A stretch of 37,068 bases of DNA, taken from the IMG/VR virus record IMGVR_UViG_3300030102_006189, positions 1-37,068 of that record; one strand, written 5' to 3'. The stretch comes from a virus. The notes below the pieces were generated by a model. That model was not told the origin of the DNA. It searched no databases and saw only the letters and a list, made by a program, of their open reading frames with translations. Shown here one piece after another: positions 16,363 to 26,686 of the stretch. Every line of letters starts with the position of its first letter. Within the stretch, counting starts at the first letter, position 1. Made by a program: the position numbers and the translations under genes.

Positions 16363-17475
16363 CTAGGAGATTTTGGCTAGAGCTTGCGATCCTTCTAGCG
16401 CGGAGCGATTAACATAGTGACCAAGTGTGGTTGCTATGTTCCGGTGTCCTGCAATTGCCATAACCTTGACCGCAGGAACTTCAGCAGCAAGCATTTCCGT
16501 GATGCCGGTGCGGCGTAAACAGTGCAGCGGATCGCCGGTCAAGCCCGCTTTATCACGCAGCTTCCGCATCGCAGCACAGATGCTTCCTTTTACCATGTAC
16601 GCTGGTCTTCCATGACCGTCATCCAGAAACCATTGCTCGCCTGGATTCCTTGACATCATATCGTAGCGTAATCTTTGCAGCAAAGTCGGATGTATTTCAA
16701 TCTTCCTGGTCTGCTTCTTTTTCACGCGCACAATTTTTCCTGGCTTCGGGAAATCGTTTACGTGGTGGATTTCAATGAAGCCGTTCTTCAGATCAATCCG
16801 CGACAAGGGCAGACTCCATATCTCACCCAGGCGCATGATTTGATAGCGTGCTAGCAGATAGACCCGCTCTAAGTTTCCGTTGCCGCTTTGTTCAACCTGA
16901 AACCTATAACGATTGATTTCATCAGCACTCCACACAGTCGGCTCACCGTTAGGCTGCTTGATGCGTGTGTGGACTATCTGTTTTTGGATTTTGATGGGTT
17001 TTCCCAGCAAGTCACTACGAAACTCTGCCAACCAATTGAAGCATGATTGCAAATGCCGCTGATGCTTATTGATAGTTGACTCTGTAAGACCTTGGCGCTC
17101 GCACGCCAGAACAAATCGTTTGTTCAGACTGTTATCCCATGTGGCTAGTTCAAAATCTCCCACGGCTTCCATCAGTTTTTTAAAACTTGTTTCATATTCT
17201 ACAGTGCTGCCTGTCCAGATTTTTTCTTCCAGGTAGCAGCGTGAAGCAGAACTAAACAAAGTTTTACTGATTTTTATTTGCCCGCCTTCATACTTCAGAA
17301 GTGCTTTCTGATACCGCTCTGCCAGCAGCAGGCTCACTTCTTGTTCCGACAGACTCTCTAGTTCCTTGAGAAGCGCCAGCGTTGGGCGGGCGGCCGGTTT
17401 CCCCTCTCTGTGGATGTATCCGACTACCCGATTGCGCGCTTTCTCCACCTTCCATCGCTTTTTCGGTCTGCTCAT
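16363..17475 (-). CDS. int: Tyrosine-recombinase integrase
   Basis: A 370-residue phage integrase. Catalytic residues are visible: Arg215 in YQIMRLGEI, a Lys in the KKKQTRKIEIHP hairpin, His318 and Arg321 in HCLRRTGITEML, His344 in AIAGHRNIATTLGHY, and the nucleophile Tyr354. Residues about 70-170 form the core-binding domain, and the first 65 are a basic arm-binding region. The ATG has AAGGA seven bases upstream. The 3' end abuts attP. The enzyme should integrate the phage into the 3' end of a host tRNA-Phe gene. It is transcribed leftward behind the repressor-like gene, which would allow expression during establishment of lysogeny. Confidence 0.95.
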   Translation of the reverse strand: MSRPKKRWKVEKARNRVVGYIHREGKPAARPTLALLKELESLSEQEVSLLLAERYQKALLKYEGGQIKISKTLFSSASRCYLEEKIWTGSTVEYETSFKKLMEAVGDFELATWDNSLNKRFVLACERQGLTESTINKHQRHLQSCFNWLAEFRSDLLGKPIKIQKQIVHTRIKQPNGEPTVWSADEINRYRFQVEQSGNGNLERVYLLARYQIMRLGEIWSLPLSRIDLKNGFIEIHHVNDFPKPGKIVRVKKKQTRKIEIHPTLLQRLRYDMMSRNPGEQWFLDDGHGRPAYMVKGSICAAMRKLRDKAGLTGDPLHCLRRTGITEMLAAEVPAVKVMAIAGHRNIATTLGHYVNRSALEGSQALAKIS

Positions 17476-17554: not shown

Positions 17555-17854
17555 TCATTTCTTAGCTATTGTCTCCAGTGCAGCTTTAAAGACGTTTATA
17601 ATTTCCCGCTGATCTTCTAGCTGCTTTTCTAAATCAGCGATTCTTTGCTTCAAGAAATCAACTTCTGACTTCTCTCCAGCAGTTTGTTTGCCATCGAACA
17701 AATCGCGCAGTGCTGCGATATATTTGGCGCTGGGACGATTCTCGCCTTTTTCCCAGCGGTGTACGGCGCTGTAAGGCGCGCCAAGTTTTTTACTGACATC
17801 TTGTACAGTTAATCCTAAAGCCATCCTGGCTTCACGGATTTCGTTTGGTTTCAT
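17555..17854 (-). CDS. Repressor-like Xre-family HTH protein with coiled-coil tail
   Basis: A 99-residue protein. Residues 4-55 are a Cro/CI-type helix-turn-helix: IREARMALGLTVQDVSKKLG, then APYSAVHRWEKGENRPSAKY. Residues about 65-95 form a coiled coil (VDFLKQRIADLEKQLEDQRE) likely to dimerise it. There is no LexA-like autoproteolysis domain, so induction by RecA cleavage is not expected. It is divergent from the early operon across a 91-base region with three TTGCAA boxes and upstream of the integrase on the same strand. It is the best candidate for the lysogeny repressor, although an early antirepressor-type role cannot be excluded. Confidence 0.75.
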   Translation of the reverse strand: MKPNEIREARMALGLTVQDVSKKLGAPYSAVHRWEKGENRPSAKYIAALRDLFDGKQTAGEKSEVDFLKQRIADLEKQLEDQREIINVFKAALETIAKK

Positions 17855-18188: not shown

Positions 18189-18555
18189 ACGCGCGGATAA
18201 GCTAGGGCTATCCTGCTCGACATTATCTAAGGCTACTGGCATTCCTACGCCCACGATCAAGGGCTGGTTGCGCGGTAGCCATTATCCAAGGCCAAAGTTT
18301 CATGAAGCTTTGGCTGAAGGGCTGAAGGTAACTAAGAAAACACTGGATCGCTGGCTGGAGAAGATGTTTCCAAGCCGCTTCCAGGGTTTTTCTGCATACA
18401 TAGAAAAGGAAGCAACAATGAAAAAAAAACGCACACGCACACCGAAGACCAGAGCAGAGATCAAGGATGCAGTAGCAGCTTATCTGGAGCGCGGTGGAAC
18501 GATAACTGTGCTGCCGGATGAAGCAGAGTACACCATCTGGAGCGAGGATCTTTAA
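18157..18555 (+). CDS. HTH regulator with a C-terminal KTRAEI module
   Basis: A 132-residue protein from the ATG at 18157, overlapping the previous gene by 32 bases. Residues 10-70 form a Cro/CI-type HTH (ADKLGLSCSTLSKATGIPTP, then TIKGWLRGSHYPRPK). Residues 88-132 are a distinct module: MKKKRTRTPKTRAEIKDAVA, then AYLERGGTITVLP. An internal in-frame ATG at 18418 has AAGGA eight bases upstream, and stand-alone small phage proteins of this KTRAEI...GG.(I/V)T type are common. The gene may therefore yield both the full protein and a 45-residue C-terminal product. The stop overlaps the nuclease start (TAATG). Confidence 0.6.
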   Translation: MARSKTNPLRKRADKLGLSCSTLSKATGIPTPTIKGWLRGSHYPRPKFHEALAEGLKVTKKTLDRWLEKMFPSRFQGFSAYIEKEATMKKKRTRTPKTRAEIKDAVAAYLERGGTITVLPDEAEYTIWSEDL

Positions 18556-19388
18556 TGGATCACTACAGCCCTAGTCAGTTTCGCAAATACCAGGACTGCG
18601 GGCAGCAGTACCAGTACCGGTACGTGAAGAAGCTGCACGAAAAAACCAAAGAAGCATTGATCATTGGCCGCGCAGTCGATGAAGCAATCAATAGTATACA
18701 CACAAATGTTATGGAACCATCGCTGCCGGCAAAGCCTGAAGTTTTTCTTTTCCAGACAATAGAATCAGAGCGCTTTACGCACGGCGATGAACTGAAGGCA
18801 GAGGAATGGGACAGCATCGATGAGATGGCAACGCGCTTTGTCGAGCATGATATTTTTGAACAATACAAGAGCATGATTGACTACAAGGTGCGCGCCATTC
18901 AGCACGATATGGTTCTGCGCGTTCATGGTCTTGATCGCAAAATTGTTGGCATCGCAGATTGCATCGCAGAGCGCTCTGTATTTGGTCAGAAAGAACACTA
19001 TGAATCTGCGCTGATTCTGGATGTCAAGACAGCCGCGCGCTCAGTTTCTCCAAAACCCAGCTACAGCTATCGGTTTCAGTTATCAGTCTACGCCCTTGCC
19101 TGGATGTGCATGCAGGGTACGGAGATCATTCCGCAGTGCGAAGTGCGCGTGCTGGTTAAGAAGAAGAAACCCGAATGGCAAGTGCAAGTTGTGCCAATCA
19201 CGGAGAACGACCTAGCACATGTGCTAGAAGTTGCGCGAATGCACGAACGATCTGTCAAGGCACAGTATTTCCCGATCAATCGGGATTCTAAGTTCTGTAG
19301 TGAAAAGAACTGTAGTTATTTCGAGCGCTGCCATGAAGAACATGGCGGCCGGCTTACGGACGTTTTAGCTCAGTGCATCCGTGGCTGA
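18555..19388 (+). CDS. PD-(D/E)XK nuclease with a Cas4/AddB-like Fe-S cysteine set
   Basis: A 277-residue RecB/Cas4-type nuclease. It starts like AddB/Cas4 with HYSPSQFRKYQDCGQQYQYR (Cys15). Core motifs are GIADCIAERS, then LILDVKTAAR (Asp and Lys of the active site) and RFQLSVYAL (QxxxY motif). Three further cysteines (248, 253, 259, in KFCSEKNCSYFERC) complete the Cys...Cys-Cys-Cys set that holds a 4Fe-4S cluster in Cas4 and AddB. It should resect DNA ends for recombination by the ATPase and SSB-like proteins encoded downstream. No CRISPR repeats are present, so an adaptation role is not supported. Confidence 0.85.
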   Translation: MDHYSPSQFRKYQDCGQQYQYRYVKKLHEKTKEALIIGRAVDEAINSIHTNVMEPSLPAKPEVFLFQTIESERFTHGDELKAEEWDSIDEMATRFVEHDIFEQYKSMIDYKVRAIQHDMVLRVHGLDRKIVGIADCIAERSVFGQKEHYESALILDVKTAARSVSPKPSYSYRFQLSVYALAWMCMQGTEIIPQCEVRVLVKKKKPEWQVQVVPITENDLAHVLEVARMHERSVKAQYFPINRDSKFCSEKNCSYFERCHEEHGGRLTDVLAQCIRG

Positions 19389-19584
19389 AGAAGAACAACA
19401 TGAGCGGCTGATTACGGCGCTGGAAGAGAACACGCGAGCCATGCTGCTGTTAGTGCGCACCATGCCGGACTTCATCCAGGAGATGCAGTCAGCAGATGCA
19501 GTCACACGCGCCGGACTATCTAAGGATCAGCTTTTCGAGGAAGCAGCAGAGATCGCGAAACAAATAAAAAAGGAAGAGCAATGA
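19381..19584 (+). CDS. Small acidic helical protein of the recombination operon
   Basis: A 67-residue protein starting at GTG, overlapping the nuclease stop by 8 bases and the Sak4-like start by 4. It is Glu-rich and helical (HERLITALEENTRAMLLLVR, then SKDQLFEEAAEIAKQIKKEE). Tight coupling to both neighbours suggests an accessory subunit of the nuclease/ATPase module. No family is recognised. Confidence 0.6.
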   Translation: MAEEEQHERLITALEENTRAMLLLVRTMPDFIQEMQSADAVTRAGLSKDQLFEEAAEIAKQIKKEEQ

Positions 19585-20327
19585 GCTTACAAGAAAAAGT
19601 ATTGACCGGAAAGCAGCTACGGCCGCTTCGGGTCATCGTTTACGGCCCAGGCGGGATCGGTAAAAGCTTCTGGGCATCACAGTGGAAAGAGTCACTGATC
19701 CTGGATATAGAAGGCGGCTTGGGCGGCATCGACTGCGCGAGCATCCCGCTGATCGGCAAGCCCTGGTCAGAAATTTTAAGCACGCTGACAGAGCTAGCAA
19801 CCGAAGAGCATGGCTACAAAACCATTGTGCTGGATTCGCTCGATTGGCTTGAGCGCTTAATGCACATCGATATTTGTCAAGTGCGCGGCTGCATCAGCAT
19901 CGGTGATCTTCAGTACGGTGCAGGCTACGTGCAGGCACTCAGCTACTTTGAAGAGCTTGTTCAGCACATGGAAGCACTCCGCGCCAAAGGTATGAACATT
20001 GTCTTGATCTGCCACGCCAGCATCAAAGAAATGAAAGATCCCACCGCGCATCTTTACAGCAAGTACCAGCTAGCACTCAACGCAAAGGCCGCAGAGAAAA
20101 TGTACCAATGGGCTGACTGCGTTTTATTTGCGAAGCAGGAAATTTCAGTGACCACAGAGAAAAAGGATTTCGGCGGTGTCCGCAAGCGTGCGGGCGGGGG
20201 CGAGCGCCGAATGTATTGCAATGATTCGCCCACTTACCATGCGAAAAATCGATACGATCTGCCGGATGAAATGCCGCTGGATTACGAGGTTTTTCGGAAT
20301 CATATAACCGCTTATTTCGGAGAATAA
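19581..20327 (+). CDS. Sak4-like single-strand annealing / RecA-fold ATPase
   Basis: A 248-residue ATPase of the phage AAA_24 / Sak4 type. Walker A is VYGPGGIGKSFWAS near residue 20, and Walker B is TIVLDSLDWLERLM near residue 90. LICHASIKEM near residue 140 is a sensor-like strand. The C-terminal RMYCNDSPTYHAKNRYDLP pattern is typical of the family. Sak4 proteins bind ssDNA and promote annealing together with a phage SSB. Neighbours (Fe-S nuclease upstream, DUF669-like SSB two genes downstream, RusA later) form a standard phage recombination cassette. AAGGA precedes the ATG. Confidence 0.85.
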   Translation: MSLQEKVLTGKQLRPLRVIVYGPGGIGKSFWASQWKESLILDIEGGLGGIDCASIPLIGKPWSEILSTLTELATEEHGYKTIVLDSLDWLERLMHIDICQVRGCISIGDLQYGAGYVQALSYFEELVQHMEALRAKGMNIVLICHASIKEMKDPTAHLYSKYQLALNAKAAEKMYQWADCVLFAKQEISVTTEKKDFGGVRKRAGGGERRMYCNDSPTYHAKNRYDLPDEMPLDYEVFRNHITAYFGE

Positions 20328-20329
20328 TT

Positions 20330-20620
20330 ATGACAGGAGCGGAACTAGAGTTGTTGAGAAACACCATCGGTATGAGCCGGAAGGAATTCGCGGATGCAAC
20401 CGGTATAGACAACAACACGGTCTGGAATTGGGAAACCAAGCGCGCGCAGGACGAACTCAAGCCTTGGGTTCCTCTTGCCATTCAAGCGCTTGCTGGTGAC
20501 AAATTCCGCGTAATTGACGGTGAAATTTGGGTGCGTGCGATCACACTCGCGCAAGCCAAAGCCAACGGTAGCGCCACTCACACGCTGCCTAATTTTGATC
20601 AACCTACCTTGGAGATTTAA
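20330..20620 (+). CDS. HTH regulator within the recombination operon
   Basis: A 96-residue protein. Residues 5-45 are an Xre-like HTH (LELLRNTIGMSRKEFADATG, then IDNNTVWNWETKRAQ), followed by a small C-terminal region (FRVIDGEIWVRAITLAQAKA). It starts two bases after the Sak4-like stop and ends at the start of the SSB-like gene. It may autoregulate the recombination genes or modulate the early-to-late change. Its target is unknown. Confidence 0.65.
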   Translation: MTGAELELLRNTIGMSRKEFADATGIDNNTVWNWETKRAQDELKPWVPLAIQALAGDKFRVIDGEIWVRAITLAQAKANGSATHTLPNFDQPTLEI

Positions 20621-21112
20621 ATGCCATTTTTTGATCCACACGAAGAGCTAGCAGGGACGAACTACGATCCGATTCCTGACGGTGAACACACTTGCATTGT
20701 CAACTCAAGCGCCTGGAAAGATTCCGCAAGCGGCGGGAACTATCTGGAAATCGAATTCTCGATATTCGGCGGGCAGTTTGAAGGCCGCATGATCTGGGAC
20801 CGTCTGAACCTTGTCAACAAGAACGACATGGCCGTGCAGATCGCACGTGAAGGGCTAGCACGCTTCTGTCGTGTTTTTGAATGCACGCAGCCGCTCGAAA
20901 ACCCGCAGGAGTTGCAGTCCTTCATGTCGTCAACCTGGGGCAAGAAGTGTCTGGTCAAGGTCAAGAACCAGCCGCGCAAGAATAACCCAGATCAAATCGA
21001 CTTAGTGGTGAAAAACGTGCGCCGGTTGGAGCAGCCTGAAGCTGCGAAGCCAGCACCCAAATCCAGCAAGAAAGATGTCGATCCCAAAGACCCAGACAAG
21101 CTCCCTTTTTAG
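20621..21112 (+). CDS. DUF669-like single-stranded DNA-binding protein
   Basis: A 163-residue protein matching the phage DUF669 family: DPIPDGEHTCIVNSSAWKDS, then NYLEIEFSIFGGQFEGRMIW, then KCLVKVKNQPRKN. The C-terminus is charged and ends KDPDKLPF, acidic with a hydrophobic tip like the partner-binding tails of SSB proteins. DUF669 genes accompany Sak4 ATPases and are regarded as phage SSBs with an OB-like fold. It should coat ssDNA during recombination and replication. Confidence 0.8.
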   Translation: MPFFDPHEELAGTNYDPIPDGEHTCIVNSSAWKDSASGGNYLEIEFSIFGGQFEGRMIWDRLNLVNKNDMAVQIAREGLARFCRVFECTQPLENPQELQSFMSSTWGKKCLVKVKNQPRKNNPDQIDLVVKNVRRLEQPEAAKPAPKSSKKDVDPKDPDKLPF

Positions 21113-21116
21113 CACG

Positions 21117-21311
21117 GTGAGCTACGTCCAGAACTACCCTTATCATGGCTACAAGATTAAGCGCGATAGTTACATGGCGATGTATGAAGTCATTGAAACC
21201 ATCTCGCATCATGGAGCTACAGAAGTCGTCTGGCGCTGGTTTCCGACAAAAGACGATGCAGAAGAATTTATACGCGCCCAGCAGCGGGTGGCGCGCCCTC
21301 AGTCTCAGTAA
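21117..21311 (+). CDS. Small early protein, unknown function
   Basis: A 64-residue protein from GTG at 21117, the first start after the upstream stop; ATG at 21174 is an alternative. It reads SYVQNYPYHGYKIKRDSYMA, then MYEVIETISHHGATEVVWRW and FPTKDDAEEFIRAQQ. The pattern (substrate-like strands with a final KDDAEEFI helix) resembles small single-domain phage proteins, but no family is named here. The region after it has no coding ORF until 21386. Confidence 0.5.
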   Translation: MSYVQNYPYHGYKIKRDSYMAMYEVIETISHHGATEVVWRWFPTKDDAEEFIRAQQRVARPQSQ

Positions 21312-21343
21312 CTCGCTGCCTATTCTTTCATGTTTCCTCTCCG

Positions 21344-21378
21344 CGCGCCCGCTGTTGCTCCTAATGGCAGTGGGCGCG
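21344..21378 (+). other. RNA hairpin before the gene at 21386
   Basis: CGCGCCCGCTG (21344-21354) pairs along all 11 bases, one as G-U, with CAGTGGGCGCG (21368-21378) around a 13-base loop. It ends 7 bases before the next start codon, whose AGGA lies only 0-1 bases from ATG. There is no T-run, so translational control or RNA stabilisation is likelier than termination. Confidence 0.5.
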
Positions 21379-21385
21379 TTCAGGA

Positions 21386-21730
21386 ATGAAAACGCTTGAA
21401 GAACTAGCAGACATTATCATCAAGGATGCTCTTTCACGCGGGCATGCTTTGATGGTATGCGATAGCGCGGAGGAAGCCGGCGAACTGCTGGCTTACTTAG
21501 AAAAGCGCATACCCGCAAGCACTGATCCAGTTTGGCAGGATCTTTTCCCAAATGAGCGCCGGCACTTGGCAACGGCTCTGATTCGGAAAAAGGAAGTCAA
21601 CATTTACAGCGTTAGGTATTTCAAGAACCTGGATGATGCTGATCAAAATATTCGCGTGCAGCTATATAGTCGGAGTAATCGCCGGCGCGGTCCTAATGCT
21701 TCACGCGCTAAGAAAAAGAAAAAAGGATGA
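21386..21730 (+). CDS. Early protein of unknown function, basic C-terminus
   Basis: A 114-residue protein. The N-terminal part (LEELADIIIKDALSRGHALM, then VCDSAEEAGELLAYLEKRIP) looks like an alpha/beta unit, and the last 20 residues are strongly basic (SRSNRRRGPNASRAKKKKKG), suggesting nucleic-acid contact. Its stop overlaps the following ATG. Function is not recognised. Confidence 0.55.
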   Translation: MKTLEELADIIIKDALSRGHALMVCDSAEEAGELLAYLEKRIPASTDPVWQDLFPNERRHLATALIRKKEVNIYSVRYFKNLDDADQNIRVQLYSRSNRRRGPNASRAKKKKKG

Positions 21731-22101
21731 TGCTCAAATTTCTACGGTTTCACCATAGCAGGCTCGCCAAGCGCGGAACGAAAACCTATGACCTTTACGA
21801 GTGCGTGTGCGGCAACCAGAAAGTCATTCGCCGCGATCAAGTCAAAGCTGGAAACATCAAGTCATGCGGGTGCTTGCGCAGAGACATGGCGCGGGAAAAC
21901 TTAAAGAAGATTCGCAGGCTAAATTATAACAACGTCAACAACGGCGGCAGGAAACCAGGAACCAGCGTGCCAAGTGCTAACAAGGGCAAGGTCTGCATTT
22001 ACTTGACAAAGGGAAAGCATATCGGCTCGCGCAGAATGTATGTAACAGAAGAAGAGCTAACAGAAATTTACCTGGGCATACGTGATGATCCAGCGGCTTG
22101 A
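21730..22101 (+). CDS. Zinc-ribbon DNA-binding protein
   Basis: A 123-residue protein; the second ATG of ATGATG is preferred because it leaves three bases after AAAAGG. Residues 20-50 contain YECVCGNQKVIRRDQ, then VKAGNIKSCGCLRR: two CxC pairs about 20 residues apart. This zinc ribbon is frequent in phage AP2-like regulators and HNH-associated proteins. No HNH catalytic motif is visible. The basic C-terminal half includes VCIYLTKGKHIGSRRMYVTE. It overlaps the RusA gene by 17 bases. A DNA-binding role is inferred. Confidence 0.6.
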   Translation: MLKFLRFHHSRLAKRGTKTYDLYECVCGNQKVIRRDQVKAGNIKSCGCLRRDMARENLKKIRRLNYNNVNNGGRKPGTSVPSANKGKVCIYLTKGKHIGSRRMYVTEEELTEIYLGIRDDPAA

Positions 22102-22474
22102 AGCGTGGCTGCCTTACCCGCCGGCGCTGAACAAAATCTGGCGCATGCACAACAACAATATCTACCTATCGCCGGAGGCAAAGCAGTACAAGCAGAGCGT
22201 TGAAGAGATCCTGGGCTGGCAGGGAGAAACGATCTGGAAGTCAGAGATGCTAGTCGTTGACATCGTGAGCTATCCACCGGACCGGCGCACGCGTGACATA
22301 GACGGCATTCTCAAGTGCTTGATTGATGCGATCCCAAGCGGGCAAGGCGGTATCTGGGCAGATGATTCTCAGATTGCCGAACTGCATGTGCTACGGCTCT
22401 ACGGTTTTGAGCATAAAGGCAGCGTGCAGATCAAGATCAGCGAATGCAGAAAAGAAAACGTGAGGAAGCGATGA
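22085..22474 (+). CDS. rusA: RusA-family Holliday-junction resolvase
   Basis: A 129-residue protein. It has the family opening (WLPYPPALNKIWRMHNNNIY), the acidic catalytic segment PPDRRTRDIDGILKCLIDAI (Asp residues of RDID and LIDA) and the later Asp pair in GIWADDSQIAEL. RusA enzymes cut four-way junctions as homodimers and resolve recombination or packaging intermediates. An in-frame GTG lies at 22082. The TGA overlaps the next ATG (ATGA). It fits with the nuclease, ATPase and SSB genes upstream. Confidence 0.9.
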   Translation: MIQRLEAWLPYPPALNKIWRMHNNNIYLSPEAKQYKQSVEEILGWQGETIWKSEMLVVDIVSYPPDRRTRDIDGILKCLIDAIPSGQGGIWADDSQIAELHVLRLYGFEHKGSVQIKISECRKENVRKR

Positions 22475-23207: not shown

Positions 23208-23616
23208 CTCTTGCTGCATGCGCCTAAGTCATTTTCCTACGCCGCGTGATGTTTTTAATTATTTACCGGAAAAAGATGCGGGAATCAGCGGCTGGGCTGA
23301 TCGCTCGCTGCCTGACTACCGCCAAGCGATTTTTCAATATTCAGGATTTTGCAGGGATGCGTATCGCAAAATGGATGCGCGCACGCAGGGCTTACTCGAA
23401 GAAGTCATTCTGCTTTCAAAACAGAAAAACGTGAATCCCAGAGATGCCCTGCAAGGCGTGTTCAGATATTGCTTAAAGCCCGAACTGCTGACCGATGAAA
23501 GTGCCTTTGATCGCACCCAGCAACCGGATATTCATGGCGAGCAGGCGCGGGACCGGCCTGACACCGGATTCATAGCGCCAGAGCGAGTGAGCAGTGATGC
23601 CAATCAACTCAGCTAA
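23041..23616 (+). CDS. Possible helicase-loader-like replication protein (P-like)
   Basis: A 191-residue protein. The start is ATG 23041, which has AAAGGA at good spacing; GTG and two ATGs lie upstream without one. The segment DDLYHEWKEMLGKLLVSYGA, then CCMRLSHFPTPRDVFNYLPE resembles lambda P-type helicase loaders, in which a W...L....I..A pattern precedes FP(S/T)..(D/E)F. Its position after the winged-helix gene supports this. The last 144 bases overlap the convergent HTH gene. Sequence support is moderate; no ATPase motif is present. Confidence 0.5.
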   Translation: MEDQELDKFTQKILAKFNLYRTKKQEITDDLYHEWKEMLGKLLVSYGAPEILKSADSCCMRLSHFPTPRDVFNYLPEKDAGISGWADRSLPDYRQAIFQYSGFCRDAYRKMDARTQGLLEEVILLSKQKNVNPRDALQGVFRYCLKPELLTDESAFDRTQQPDIHGEQARDRPDTGFIAPERVSSDANQLS

Positions 23617-23715
23617 TTCCACGCGCTTGAGTTCTAGCACGTTCTCACGAATCGCACGGAAATCCGCACCGGTTATTGATTCCGGCGGGTCAAATCTTTT
23701 CGCTCGTTTTTTCAA
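23473..23715 (-). CDS. Xre-family HTH protein, TTG start
   Basis: An 80-residue protein. The HTH reads ADFRAIRENVLELKRVELAE, then LIGITAHSLWRYESGVRPVP. The TTG at 23715 is preferred to the ATG at 23721: the sister genes place their start 7-8 bases after GGAG, and the ATG is only one base after it. It is the last gene of the leftward accessory operon and overlaps the convergent P-like gene by 144 bases. Two CGTGCTAGC boxes lie upstream and are candidate operators. It probably regulates this operon or the facing early genes. Confidence 0.7.
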   Translation of the reverse strand: MKKRAKRFDPPESITGADFRAIRENVLELKRVELAELIGITAHSLWRYESGVRPVPRLLAMNIRLLGAIKGTFIGQQFGL

Positions 23716-23775
23716 CGTCATTCTCCTATTGTTGTTTGTTCCTACCCTGTCATTCTCCGATATGGTTAGGAATCG

Positions 23776-23807
23776 CGTGCTAGCCAGCTTGCGGCCGTGC
23801 TAGCACG
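23776..23807. promoter_or_regulatory. Paired CGTGCTAGC boxes, 20 bases apart
   Basis: CGTGCTAGC occurs at 23776-23784 and 23796-23804. The second extends to the perfect 12-base palindrome CGTGCTAGCACG. The 20-base phase (two helical turns) and position upstream of the HTH gene suggest an operator. Confidence 0.5.
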
Positions 23808-23823
23808 CACCAGGGTTTATTGA

Positions 23824-23979
23824 TTATTCTTCTTCTTGATTTTCTAGCCATTCGTTCATGGCTACTTCAAACCCAATCGGATCACCTTTTCGGAATAAAA
23901 GCGCATAGTTTGGCGCGTCATAGATCCCTTCCAGGTAGTCCATGTATTTAAGCTCATCATAAGTGAAATAATTACTCAT
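23824..23979 (-). CDS. Small acidic protein of the accessory operon
   Basis: A 51-residue protein preceded by the conserved leader. It starts MSNYFTYDELKYMDYLEGIY and ends in an acidic tail (NEWLENQEEE). It is rich in Tyr and Asp/Glu, soluble and probably helical. Small acidic phage proteins often bind and inhibit host DNA-binding proteins, but nothing here identifies a target. Confidence 0.55.
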   Translation of the reverse strand: MSNYFTYDELKYMDYLEGIYDAPNYALLFRKGDPIGFEVAMNEWLENQEEE

Positions 23980-23982
23980 AAG

Positions 23983-24216
23983 TCATTCTCCAATTGATTG
24001 ATTAGTTTTTTCGATTGTTTCTTGCCACAAAGCCAGTGCTAGTTTCGCCACCACAAAACATAAGCTTTTTCTCGTTGGCAGCCTGCGATCTGCTAGCTCT
24101 TCGCGGGCATGTTGTGCAACCTCGCGGATGCTTGATCGCGAGTACAATGCCCCAACCTCAAATGCCGGTTGAATAGCAATCGCTATTTCTTTGACAGTCT
24201 GATTATTTACAAACAT
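23983..24216 (-). CDS. Small helical protein of the accessory operon
   Basis: A 77-residue protein with the conserved leader upstream. It is helical and mildly basic (IAIAIQPAFEVGALYSRSSI, then REVAQHAREELADRRLPTRK, SLCFVVAKLALALWQETIEK). No catalytic or metal-binding motif. The spacing to the next gene holds only the shared leader. Function unknown. Confidence 0.55.
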   Translation of the reverse strand: MFVNNQTVKEIAIAIQPAFEVGALYSRSSIREVAQHAREELADRRLPTRKSLCFVVAKLALALWQETIEKTNQSIGE

Positions 24217-24245
24217 AAGTCATTCTCCGTTTGTTGGTTTGAGTG

Positions 24246-24263
24246 CGCCCCTCGAAAGGGGCG
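24246..24263. other. Intergenic hairpin in the accessory operon
   Basis: CGCCCCT and AGGGGCG form a perfect 7-bp stem around a CGAA tetraloop, between the 27-residue peptide gene and the gene at 24216. There is no T-run on the transcribed strand, so RNA processing or stability is likelier than termination. Confidence 0.45.
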
Positions 24264-24271
24264 TTGATGGA

Positions 24272-24355
24272 TTATTTTTTGACTAGCACGCGCTTGATAG
24301 CTGCTGCAATGATCTTGCGCTGCTGCGCGTCTGCCTGCATGTTGAGAGTGTTCAT
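24272..24355 (-). CDS. Translationally coupled 27-residue basic peptide
   Basis: A very short ORF whose ATG overlaps the preceding TGA (ATGA). It encodes MNTLNMQADAQQRKIIAAAI, then KRVLVKK, a predicted amphipathic basic helix. The coupling and codon use resembling the neighbours argue that it is made, but with 27 codons the support is limited. Confidence 0.4.
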   Translation of the reverse strand: MNTLNMQADAQQRKIIAAAIKRVLVKK

Positions 24356-24627
24356 GCGGCCCCCTGTTCTTCTGAAACATTGTCAAGCTCATGGCTGACA
24401 TGGACCTTGCCGGAACTATCAACCCAGGCAAGCCGCTTGCGCCCATGCCGCGCATTGGACCCGCCGGTGAGATAAACGACTATAATATCTTCACCGTTTG
24501 AGTGATAAGCCTCACAATCAATGCCAATATCCCAGGCATTGCATGTTGTGGTTAAGCCGTAGGTTTTGTGTCCAAGTCTCGATGCTTGGCCCCTGTTTCC
24601 TTCTACTGTTCCGCGAAATTGTGCCAT
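24352..24627 (-). CDS. Conserved small beta-rich phage protein (MAQFRG type)
   Basis: A 91-residue protein. The start is the second ATG (24627), 7 bases after GGAG; the ATG at 24633 is one base from it. The sequence MAQFRGTVEGNRGQASRLGH, then TTTCNAWDIGIDCEAY and IVVYLTGGSNARHG belongs to a pattern (MAQFRGTxxGxRGxASRLG...GLT....W..G) that I recognise from many phage and plasmid genomes, where it has no established function. It is compact and beta-rich. Confidence 0.65.
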   Translation of the reverse strand: MAQFRGTVEGNRGQASRLGHKTYGLTTTCNAWDIGIDCEAYHSNGEDIIVVYLTGGSNARHGRKRLAWVDSSGKVHVSHELDNVSEEQGAA

Positions 24628-24651
24628 AGTCATTCTCCTGATTAGGCATTG

Positions 24652-24736: not shown

Positions 24737-25552
24737 CTAGTTTTCCAGGATGCTATCAAGCTGCTGCTGAATGCAGCGTTTTACTTGATCGGGGTTGAAG
24801 CTGTCTTTATCAACTTTGATCAGATTATCATCTTGCAAGCCGGCTTCAGCTAATTGGCTGCATGTAGGTTCACGGCTTGAACCGTAGCCGGAGCCGAAGC
24901 GCTCTTGAAATTCATCATAGCTGTATTGTTCTTTTGTGCTGAAATTAAGCCGGCGGTGCATGGAAGGATGAGCGGCGGCAAACACCATGCGCTCCAATTC
25001 AAGCGGCTCCTGGGCTGCTTTGATCTTCACCACGGTTGTGGTTGTGTATAAGCCATGCATTGTAGATTGATAAGCATAAAGCTCAACCCGCATGCCTGCA
25101 TTTTCAATATCATTGATAGCGCTTGCGATAGCAGCGCCGCGCGCCATTACTTGCGCTGATGTGATTTGCGCGTTGTAGCCAAAATTAAATGCTAGCTGTA
25201 TGATGCGCGGCTTGTTTGATTCTTGCGGCATGAAATAAAACATGTTTTCCGGTTGCCCTTGCAGCACTGCATCAAGATTGAAAGCTTCACCGCATACATC
25301 GAACACCGGCAGCACTTCAACCGCCGGCAGCGCTTCAATATCATCAAGCGCTTCCTGGATCATTGATAGACCTTCCGGCCATCCATGCAGCGCAAGCTTA
25401 ACAGCCTGCCGGAATGTTTTTGTTTTAGTAAATTTAGTCCTATCTGGGTTTTCCTGCCTGGAAGAATCGAAACGATTATCGTTGTTCACTTGATCAGCCT
25501 GATTAATGAATTCAAGCATGCTGTCATAGTAATGGTGGTTTCCAGTAAGCAT
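24737..25552 (-). CDS. vWA-like partner of the MoxR AAA+ ATPase, degenerate MIDAS
   Basis: A 271-residue protein, starting at the ATG two bases after the ATPase stop with GGAG five bases upstream. The segment PRIIQLAFNFGYNAQITSAQ, then VMARGAAIASAINDIENAGM and RVELYAYQS follows the strand/helix order of a von Willebrand A domain. FNFGYNA stands where DxSxS would be, so the metal site appears lost. Such vWA-like proteins (DUF7192 type, as I recall) pair with MoxR ATPases in phages. MVFAAAHPSMHRRLNFSTKE is a later conserved-looking block. In MoxR systems the vWA protein bridges ATPase and client. The client here is unknown. Confidence 0.55.
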   Translation of the reverse strand: MLTGNHHYYDSMLEFINQADQVNNDNRFDSSRQENPDRTKFTKTKTFRQAVKLALHGWPEGLSMIQEALDDIEALPAVEVLPVFDVCGEAFNLDAVLQGQPENMFYFMPQESNKPRIIQLAFNFGYNAQITSAQVMARGAAIASAINDIENAGMRVELYAYQSTMHGLYTTTTVVKIKAAQEPLELERMVFAAAHPSMHRRLNFSTKEQYSYDEFQERFGSGYGSSREPTCSQLAEAGLQDDNLIKVDKDSFNPDQVKRCIQQQLDSILEN

Positions 25553-25554
25553 GA

Positions 25555-26655
25555 TCACTCCCCTTTGATCTTGTTAATGGTTTGCTGATCAAGGCCCTTG
25601 AAGATCAGCATCTTCTCAACTTTATCCTGCTGCATGCCGGCTGCTAATAGTTGCGCACCGTTGATGCTAGCACGCGGGCTGATCACAACTTTTAAGCCAT
25701 GCTTTTCTGCATTGATGCGGTACATCTGGACAACATGATGCCAATGCTCATTCCCGCAAAGCTCAAGCTCAAGCGCGACATCATAATCCCATGCGATAAA
25801 GCAGAACCGGTCCAGGGTCGCAGCATCAAGTTGCGCGCGGCCAACGTATTGCCGATCAGCGCCCGTGCCGAAAGTATTAGCGCCGGCGATAAAAACAAAA
25901 TCATCATGCTTTTTGATCATGCCGGCCGGCGTAGCCATTTCGCCGTTAGCAAGGGCCATATTGATTGTTACTAGCACGGCCGCGCTTGCTGCGTCCATTT
26001 CATCACCTAAGAAAACACCGCCGTCTCTAAAGCACTTAACAAACAATGTTTCATGGTAAACGCCGTGCGCATCCTCGTAACCTAGTAACTGGCTTTGCAT
26101 AGTCATGGGACCGAAGGAAATGCTAGCGAAATCGCGCCCTAGCGCTTTTGCTATGTTCTTCGCCGCCGTAGTTTTGCCGGAGCCGGCCGGTCCTACTAGC
26201 ATGCTGTTAAGGCCTTGCGCGCTCACTGCTAGCAAATCGTCGAATGCTTTATGTTGGCGCTCTAAAGTTACTTTTGGTTTGTCAGCTACGCGAACAACTA
26301 TTTCGCGCGGTTCTGCTTTCGGCGCGTGCTGCTTGATCAAGTTAATCACTTGATTCTCATCAAGTTGCACTGCTTGCGGCTGCAAATGCTCCTGAATCGC
26401 ACCGGCTAGCACGCTAGCAAGATCACTGCTGCTGCTGCTTGCAGGAACAACCGGCGCGGGTTCAGGCTTCGAGGTGAGCGCTTCGGTAACGGATGCGGGA
26501 ATCTCCGGCGCGCTGCTGCTTTCCAGAATCCAATCTATTAACGTCGATTTATTTGCGCGCTCCCTAGCATCACCGGTTTGGCATTGAAGATAGCGTGCGA
26601 TTTCGCGTAACTGCTTTACTGTTTTTTGTTCTAGTTCTGCTTTATTGAATTGCAT
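25555..26655 (-). CDS. MoxR-family AAA+ ATPase (AAA_5, CobS/CbbQ-like)
   Basis: A 366-residue ATPase from ATG 26655, 7 bases after GGAG; upstream in-frame ATGs lack a ribosome site. Residues 5-45 look like a SAP/HeH-type helical domain (AELEQKTVKQLREIARYLQC). A Pro/Ser linker follows, then the AAA+ core: Walker A GPAGSGKT at 155-162, Walker B GGVFLGDEMD at 212-221, sensor 1 FIAGANT at 255-261, and TLDRF with the arginine finger at about 280-284. It heads the leftward operon and is coupled to the vWA-like gene. MoxR ATPases remodel or activate protein complexes. Here they could act in host takeover or superinfection exclusion; this is inference. Confidence 0.8.
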   Translation of the reverse strand: MQFNKAELEQKTVKQLREIARYLQCQTGDARERANKSTLIDWILESSSAPEIPASVTEALTSKPEPAPVVPASSSSSDLASVLAGAIQEHLQPQAVQLDENQVINLIKQHAPKAEPREIVVRVADKPKVTLERQHKAFDDLLAVSAQGLNSMLVGPAGSGKTTAAKNIAKALGRDFASISFGPMTMQSQLLGYEDAHGVYHETLFVKCFRDGGVFLGDEMDAASAAVLVTINMALANGEMATPAGMIKKHDDFVFIAGANTFGTGADRQYVGRAQLDAATLDRFCFIAWDYDVALELELCGNEHWHHVVQMYRINAEKHGLKVVISPRASINGAQLLAAGMQQDKVEKMLIFKGLDQQTINKIKGE

Positions 26656-26686
26656 AATCATGCTCCGATATGGATTTGAATTATCA

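Follow-up and report, generated by a model that had tools for sequence, protein, structure and literature searches.

The leftward operon at 23.5–26.7 kb of the window (the whole stretch of viral DNA analysed here, 37,068 nt) has two large genes, and the question which it raises is what kind of machine their products would form and on what it would act. According to the original prediction, these genes encode a MoxR-type ATPase with intact motifs and a vWA-like partner, and both ORFs were indeed found on the minus strand with the motifs present. The coordinates of the two genes, of their parts and of the smaller genes of the operon are collected in table 1.

Table 1. Features of the leftward operon, in positions of the window
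Feature	Position	Strand	Length	Remarks
AAA+ ATPase, MoxR/CGN type	25555..26655	-	366 aa	CbbQ/NorQ/CobS-like; PHROG 249
N-terminal helical segment of the ATPase	26515..26655	-	47 residues	lineage-specific
DUF7192 / PHROG 1909 protein (partner)	24737..25552	-	271 aa	predicted vWA-like domain with degenerate MIDAS
FNFGYNA of the partner	25169..25189	-	residues 122–128	at the position of the DxSxS metal-binding loop
Partner segment DVCGEAFNLDAVLQGQPENM	25241..25300	-	residues 85–104	candidate pore "finger", just before core strand 1
Small downstream gene	24355..24627	-	91 aa	PHROG 5927, 4e-22
Small downstream ORF	23983..24216	-	77 aa	no family in Pfam or PHROG
Small helix-turn-helix (HTH) protein, distal operon end	23473..23721	-		HTH_31, 4e-5, just under the Pfam cut-off

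The ATPase of the window is intact and of the CbbQ/NorQ AAA+ type. It consists of the N-terminal segment, a linker and the AAA+ core, which starts at about residue 130. Translation was placed at the ATG at 26655, which is preferred to an alternative ATG at 26661 (giving two more residues) because GGAG lies immediately upstream of it. The profile matches are PHROG 249 (5e-60), a family labeled "porphyrin biosynthesis," and Pfam AAA_5 (4e-13). Numbered from the ATG at 26661, the motifs are Walker A (157–164), Walker B (D220/E221), sensor 1 (N262), the arginine finger (R285) and sensor 2 (R330). Among 68 homologues, residues G157, G160, K163, E221, N262, R285, and R330 are invariant and D220 nearly so. 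The model, predicted separately from the partner (pLDDT 86.5), has its best PDB matches in CbbQ (6l1q; Z 21.6, rmsd 2.5, 231 aligned residues) and NorQ (Z 21.0), and the sequence profile matches the solved CobS at 5e-21 and Midasin modules as well. The helix-2 insert, judged from sequence only, is GYEDAHGVYHET (residues 194–205). The helix-2-insert (H2i) motif of NorQ is GRxLL/IxxxxT, and its conserved residues touch the finger of NorD (PMC13036017). This motif is absent from the ATPase family and G[FY]xDAxGxYxxT stands in its place, thus the interface at the helix-2 insert has changed.

The partner belongs to Pfam DUF7192 (PF23822; 2e-38, 132.7 bits against a cut-off of 27) and PHROG 1909 (2e-36). 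A sequence-profile search of DUF7192 against the PDB gave nothing meaningful, and the link to NorD is visible by fold comparison only. The AlphaFold2 model, built on an alignment of 82 sequences (81 of them homologues from viral contigs), has a mean pLDDT of 93.2 and a pTM of 0.87, with β1 at 117–123, α1 at 132–151, β2 at 155–166, β3 at 169–178, and a C-terminal helix at 254–270. In a Foldseek comparison with the whole PDB, the best five matches are all NorD chains of NorQ–NorD complexes (E 6e-5 to 9e-3) and the sixth is unrelated (E 0.12). Similarly, VIA-align places NorD (Z 9.3, 8.8, 8.7, 8.1, and 8.0) and the MIDAS domain of Rea1 (Z 8.2) before further vWA-type domains with Z 5–6. The 271-residue protein is therefore by prediction vWA-like, as originally proposed, and closest to NorD. 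With a TM of about 0.3 and an rmsd of 4–5 Å, the overall likeness to NorD is modest, which argues for a shared vWA-like fold only and stops short of proving descent from NorD. Since the partner model leads to NorD and the ATPase model to CbbQ/NorQ, both proteins appear to be halves of the same kind of AAA+–vWA machine.

About 115 residues precede core strand 1 of the partner, and an N-terminal domain and linker of the NorD/CbbO type are absent. Separately, the DUF7192 proteins of two Rhizobium phage loci (L011, 3629–4807, and L012, 3530–4675) are extended at the N-terminus by a domain of roughly 100 residues, which in L011 shows a weak DUF5710 match; in both loci two small genes separate the ATPase from the partner.

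FNFGYNA had been pointed out as standing where the DxSxS metal site belongs. In the confident model of the partner it is located in the loop between strand 1 and helix 1, with N123-F-G125-Y-N127 at the DxSxS place. The pattern D-x-[ST]-x-[ST] is kept in 4 out of 82 partner sequences; 43 of them have N or D at position 123, and 51 have S or T at position 127. The partner of the window lacks the full MIDAS motif DxSxS...T...D, its T and D positions having been judged by eye. Judging from the alignment, the metal site looks decayed throughout the DUF7192 family and not in the window protein alone. As vWA domains without the MIDAS aspartates are known in other MoxR–vWA systems (PMC7159879), this loss is compatible with a vWA fold.

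Segment 85–104 is among the most conserved parts of the partner (G88 in 82/82 sequences, G99 in 74/82, P101 in 72/82, and M104 in 67/82). Other conserved residues are K178 at the end of strand 3, H195-P196, R200, and Y223-G224. In NorD, the pore finger comprises residues 403–448 (PMC13036017), early in the vWA region, and the vWA part aligned to the partner model begins near residues 363–382. By analogy, the segment may be a pore finger, as its place is comparable to that of the finger of NorD.

The two genes are inherited as a unit. In the window, 2 nt lie between the ATPase stop codon and the partner ATG, and the ribosome-binding site of the partner is inside the end of the ATPase gene. The search that started from the ATPase gave 80 viral loci, with 66 strong family matches, and DUF7192 is adjacent on the same strand in 65 of these. 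The exception (L079), scored as being without DUF7192, has an adjacent ORF of 276 aa with the look of a diverged DUF7192 by eye. The remaining 14 loci contain weaker CobS-like matches, none of them with DUF7192, and the cyanophage Syn30 is likewise without it. The search that started from the partner found the ATPase alongside in 49/49 DUF7192 loci (in 48 within the locus itself, and in the 49th, which is cut at the locus edge, in the whole contig). Thus, the genes are not separated in related phages, in agreement with what had been expected of a coupled pair. Most loci were obtained by searches seeded with pair-bearing phages, so these percentages hold for that clade. Two alignments of 12 sequences were too diverse for a pattern search and narrower seeds were used; when viral contigs were searched directly and with P0002 as the only query, no relative was obtained.

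In the duplicate-free set the ATPase gene comes first in 96 cases and the partner gene in 19, and the nearest relatives share the same order in 114 out of 115. The distance matrices of the ATPase and DUF7192 are correlated (r 0.78; 999 permutations gave no value above 0.10), which is partly due to shared phage ancestry.

The known AAA+–vWA pairs remodel a target: NorQD acts on nitric oxide reductase, CbbQO on Rubisco, and Rea1 on pre-60S ribosomes (PMC13036017). The same mode is therefore proposed for the phage pair, and the cassette is read here, with a probability of about 0.68, as an early-expressed protein-remodelling motor of the MoxR/CGN AAA+–vWA kind. By analogy with NorQ–NorD, the ATPase would form a hexameric ring in which the partner would dock, its C-terminal helix resting on the post-sensor-1 loop. 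The conserved segment before core strand 1 would sit in the pore, and ATP hydrolysis would turn or pull the partner so that the target is remodelled. Given the degenerate metal site, a classical MIDAS ligand is probably not what holds the target. Targeting may come from the conserved surface of the partner (K178, H195-P196, R200, Y223-G224) or from the ATPase, by way of its variable N-terminal segment. A search for experiments on any member of the family found none.

The positions of the pair in phage genomes indicate when the motor would act. In phage phiM5, the pair has the right terminal repeat on one side and the leftward early genes on the other, and the note "detected in phage particle proteome," given for structural proteins, is missing from both products. 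In the crAss-like phage cr118_1, it is found among DNA polymerase and helicase genes, and non-structural regions house it in most of the phages viewed. Against a place outside the virion, a 65-codon ORF of phiM5 (ORF65; MF074189, 42460–42657; L004, 1349–1546), which lies out of frame within the ATPase gene, has an annotation of detection in the particle proteome, possibly an oddity of annotation or of peptide assignment. The main text of the Kayvirus transcriptome papers makes no statement on the pair genes.

In the window, on the other hand, the pair adjoins the packaging genes (terminase), within what is a variable accessory operon. Among three loci with a 99% identical terminase, two keep the ATPase start in place, and their contigs stop there, short of the partner. 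Where the terminase is 84–85% identical (two loci), position and orientation of the pair are unchanged, with an ATPase core 50% identical and a DUF7192 about 30% identical. The HTH gene at the distal end of the operon has the same place in relatives. Those with a terminase of 71–73% identity keep this boundary gene and the terminase genes, with other small genes between them, including GP88, SprT-like, and DUF6884 proteins. The pair is absent from two such contigs searched whole (27.6 and 37.3 kb, possibly incomplete), and seems dispensable across the lineage of the window. Between the HTH gene and a terminase small-subunit-like gene, loci L159, L160, L163, and L165 have differing small leftward genes (GP88, a SprT-like protease, DUF6884, and unknowns).

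Concerning the sequence of the operon itself, a 10-mer (GGAGAATGAC) occurs in five copies on the minus strand (23717–24638), in the leftward operon only, with 0.08 expected in the window. The copies are mostly located just 5′ of small ORFs and represent a repeated translation-start context, of which the ATPase start carries a variant (GGAGCATGATTATG). A promoter scan gave results no better than shuffles. CTAG is mildly enriched in the operon (26 observed vs. 16.5 expected).

A location beside packaging genes would suit a chaperone pair that helps to fold or assemble tail or head proteins, and viral precedents exist: the MoxR/vWA pair p618/p892 of the archaeal virus ATV has been linked to the development of tails (PMC4124505), and for a jumbo-phage MoxR–vWA pair a role in virion assembly has been proposed (PMC7824862). 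In view of these precedents, the original statement that nothing in packaging needs such a pair was too strong. Nevertheless, a virion-assembly role is improbable for the present family. The phiM5 products are without a virion-proteome note, most of the phages viewed have the pair in non-structural regions, and relatives whose terminase and portal are about 72% identical gave no pair (their contigs may be incomplete), which makes it probably dispensable for that type of virion. Taken together, the early-end position in phiM5 with no proteome note, the replication module of cr118_1 and the seeming dispensability make it more likely that the machine acts early in infection on a host or early phage complex rather than on the virion. 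Host remodelling is the leading guess for the class of target.

The pair is widely distributed. In GenBank, 236 records of Staphylococcus phages (Kayvirus-type) have a match to the ATPase, and the count for the DUF7192 of phage 812 is also 236. Annotated carriers include Mycobacterium, Sinorhizobium, Listeria, Acinetobacter, crAss-like, Tunturiibacter, and Rhizobium phages. The Kayvirus-type staphylococcal and the Listeria carriers are lytic, and neither these nor the crAss-like carriers are known to form lysogens. No DUF7192 was found in plasmids. Bacterial species genomes gave five loci, three with strong ATPase matches, and in two of these three DUF7192 is adjacent, whereas the third contig stops at the ATPase. 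Three contigs of bacterial MAGs (L144–L146) contain the ATPase, two of them (L145 and L146) with the full pair; they are probably stray viral contigs or prophages.

The window, for its part, is probably a temperate podovirus-like phage, since it has a tyrosine-type integrase (16363–17475, minus strand) and an HTH_3 repressor-like gene (17555–17854, minus strand). The closest isolates by terminase are Pelagibacter phage Baldr and Vibrio phages, and a recombination module on the plus strand (18555–22474) comprises a PD-(D/E)XK/Cas4-like nuclease, an AAA_24 (Sak4-like) ATPase, DUF669, and a RusA resolvase.

A prophage-expressed exclusion machine had been proposed, and superinfection exclusion or another anti-phage defence would be in accordance with the integrase and repressor-like gene, with the varying content of the operon among relatives, with the divergence of the pair, as conflict genes are often divergent, and with a weak local likeness of the ATPase to the defence ATPase IetA (1e-5). 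This proposal did not hold up and is very unlikely. The pair is kept in phages that are not known to form lysogens, and carriers among lytic Staphylococcus and Listeria phages, crAss-like phages, mycobacteriophages, and rhizobiophages argue against a lysogen-specific role. In PADLOC, the operon has no specific defence match and only weak generic ones: DUF7192 gave no match, the small operon proteins no convincing one, and the ATPase matches are short and weak, that to IetA covering mainly the P-loop part. The operon occupants of relatives (GP88, SprT-like, DUF6884) are not known defence genes, and a literature search on the IteA anti-phage ATPase gave nothing useful.

Least probable of all is a CobST-like chelatase helper that teams with host CobN-type subunits and raises cobalamin production, as the "porphyrin biosynthesis" label of the ATPase would suggest. 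In its favour are the CobS profile match and the proposal that the CobST of tailed viruses hijacks host CobN (PMC8651126), but all that ties the pair to cobalamin is the label of the ATPase. The partner is short and stand-alone and its MIDAS is not intact, whereas CobT has a MIDAS in a C-terminal vWA domain. The partner also has no Pfam CobT match and CobT-like viral proteins are remote fold matches only, the cyanophage CobS group is without DUF7192, and the hosts are as unlike as Staphylococcus, Listeria, and Mycobacterium.

The N-terminal segment of the ATPase had been described as SAP/HeH-like and thus as a possible DNA-binding part, and it does have a SAP/Rho_N-like appearance; nevertheless, no SAP or HeH profile matches it, and the best match, Rho_N (E 0.009), is below its cut-off. 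The model gives two low-confidence helices (2–26 and 38–48). Among the loci compared, the segment is present only in the phage lineage of the window. Its 47 residues are 70% identical to those of L154 and 21% to those of L095, whereas the ATPase core shows 50% identity to L154 and 73% to L095. DUF7192 tracks the core (about 31% and 55%, respectively). As the segment and the core with DUF7192 point to different relatives, the simplest account is that core and partner were apparently swapped as one unit behind a lineage-specific N-terminus, which provides a concrete hypothesis on targeting. A rather unlikely extension of the motor reading is that DUF7192 marks a phage-specific MIDAS-degenerate motor that takes apart or re-sets a host complex early in infection, aimed by a swappable N-terminal adaptor of the ATPase. 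If true, the target could be for instance a polymerase, a ribosome, or a defence complex, and one core engine would be re-aimed in each phage lineage.

The description of the cassette as an undescribed system applies to its function and not to its gene families, as both proteins are already in Pfam/PHROG. MoxR–vWA pairs are likewise already known in viruses, namely in ATV (p618/p892) and in jumbo phages (PMC7824862). As far as the searched literature shows, what is new is the assignment of DUF7192 as the vWA-like member that completes the PHROG 249 pair, the apparently family-wide degeneration of the metal site, and the joint travel of core and partner; no mention of DUF7192 was found in the open-access literature searched. 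Hundreds of phage genomes carry the pair as "porphyrin biosynthesis" and "hypothetical protein." If DUF7192 is taken as the vWA-like partner of the ATPase next to it, two unknowns become a single machine that can be tested, and a misleading metabolic label falls away. This view would also offer a small, MIDAS-poor system for probing the role of the vWA partner in MoxR machines.

Among the known systems, NorQ–NorD, which matures nitric oxide reductase in Paracoccus and Jhaorihella, resembles the phage pair in its AAA+ protein of the same clade, its vWA-like partner and its paired genes. NorD differs, as it is a protein of about 69 kDa (PMC13036017) with an N-terminal domain, a linker, and an intact MIDAS, whereas DUF7192 has 271 aa and a degenerate MIDAS; the helix-2-insert motif is also unlike that of the phage ATPase, and phages are without a NOR target. 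CbbQ–CbbO, the Rubisco activase, shares the ATPase fold (Z 21.6 to 6l1q) and the logic of a vWA partner, but CbbO differs from DUF7192 as NorD does and its known target is Rubisco. Rea1/Midasin (Mdn1) joins a MoxR-clade AAA+ with a MIDAS domain and resembles both proteins (partner Z 8.2; ATPase matches to Midasin modules); in contrast to the pair, it is a single very large eukaryotic protein chain that contains six AAA+ modules and acts in ribosome assembly. CobS–CobT is related through the sequence of the ATPase (5e-21) and occurs as two-gene pairs in tailed viruses (PMC8651126), but CobT is larger with an intact MIDAS, and the cyanophage CobS-like loci are without DUF7192. Finally, ATV p618–p892 and the jumbo-phage MoxR pairs are, by their published descriptions, likewise a virus-encoded MoxR ATPase with a vWA partner (PMC4124505, PMC7824862), and the jumbo-phage vWA differs from DUF7192 in being fused to a metallopeptidase.
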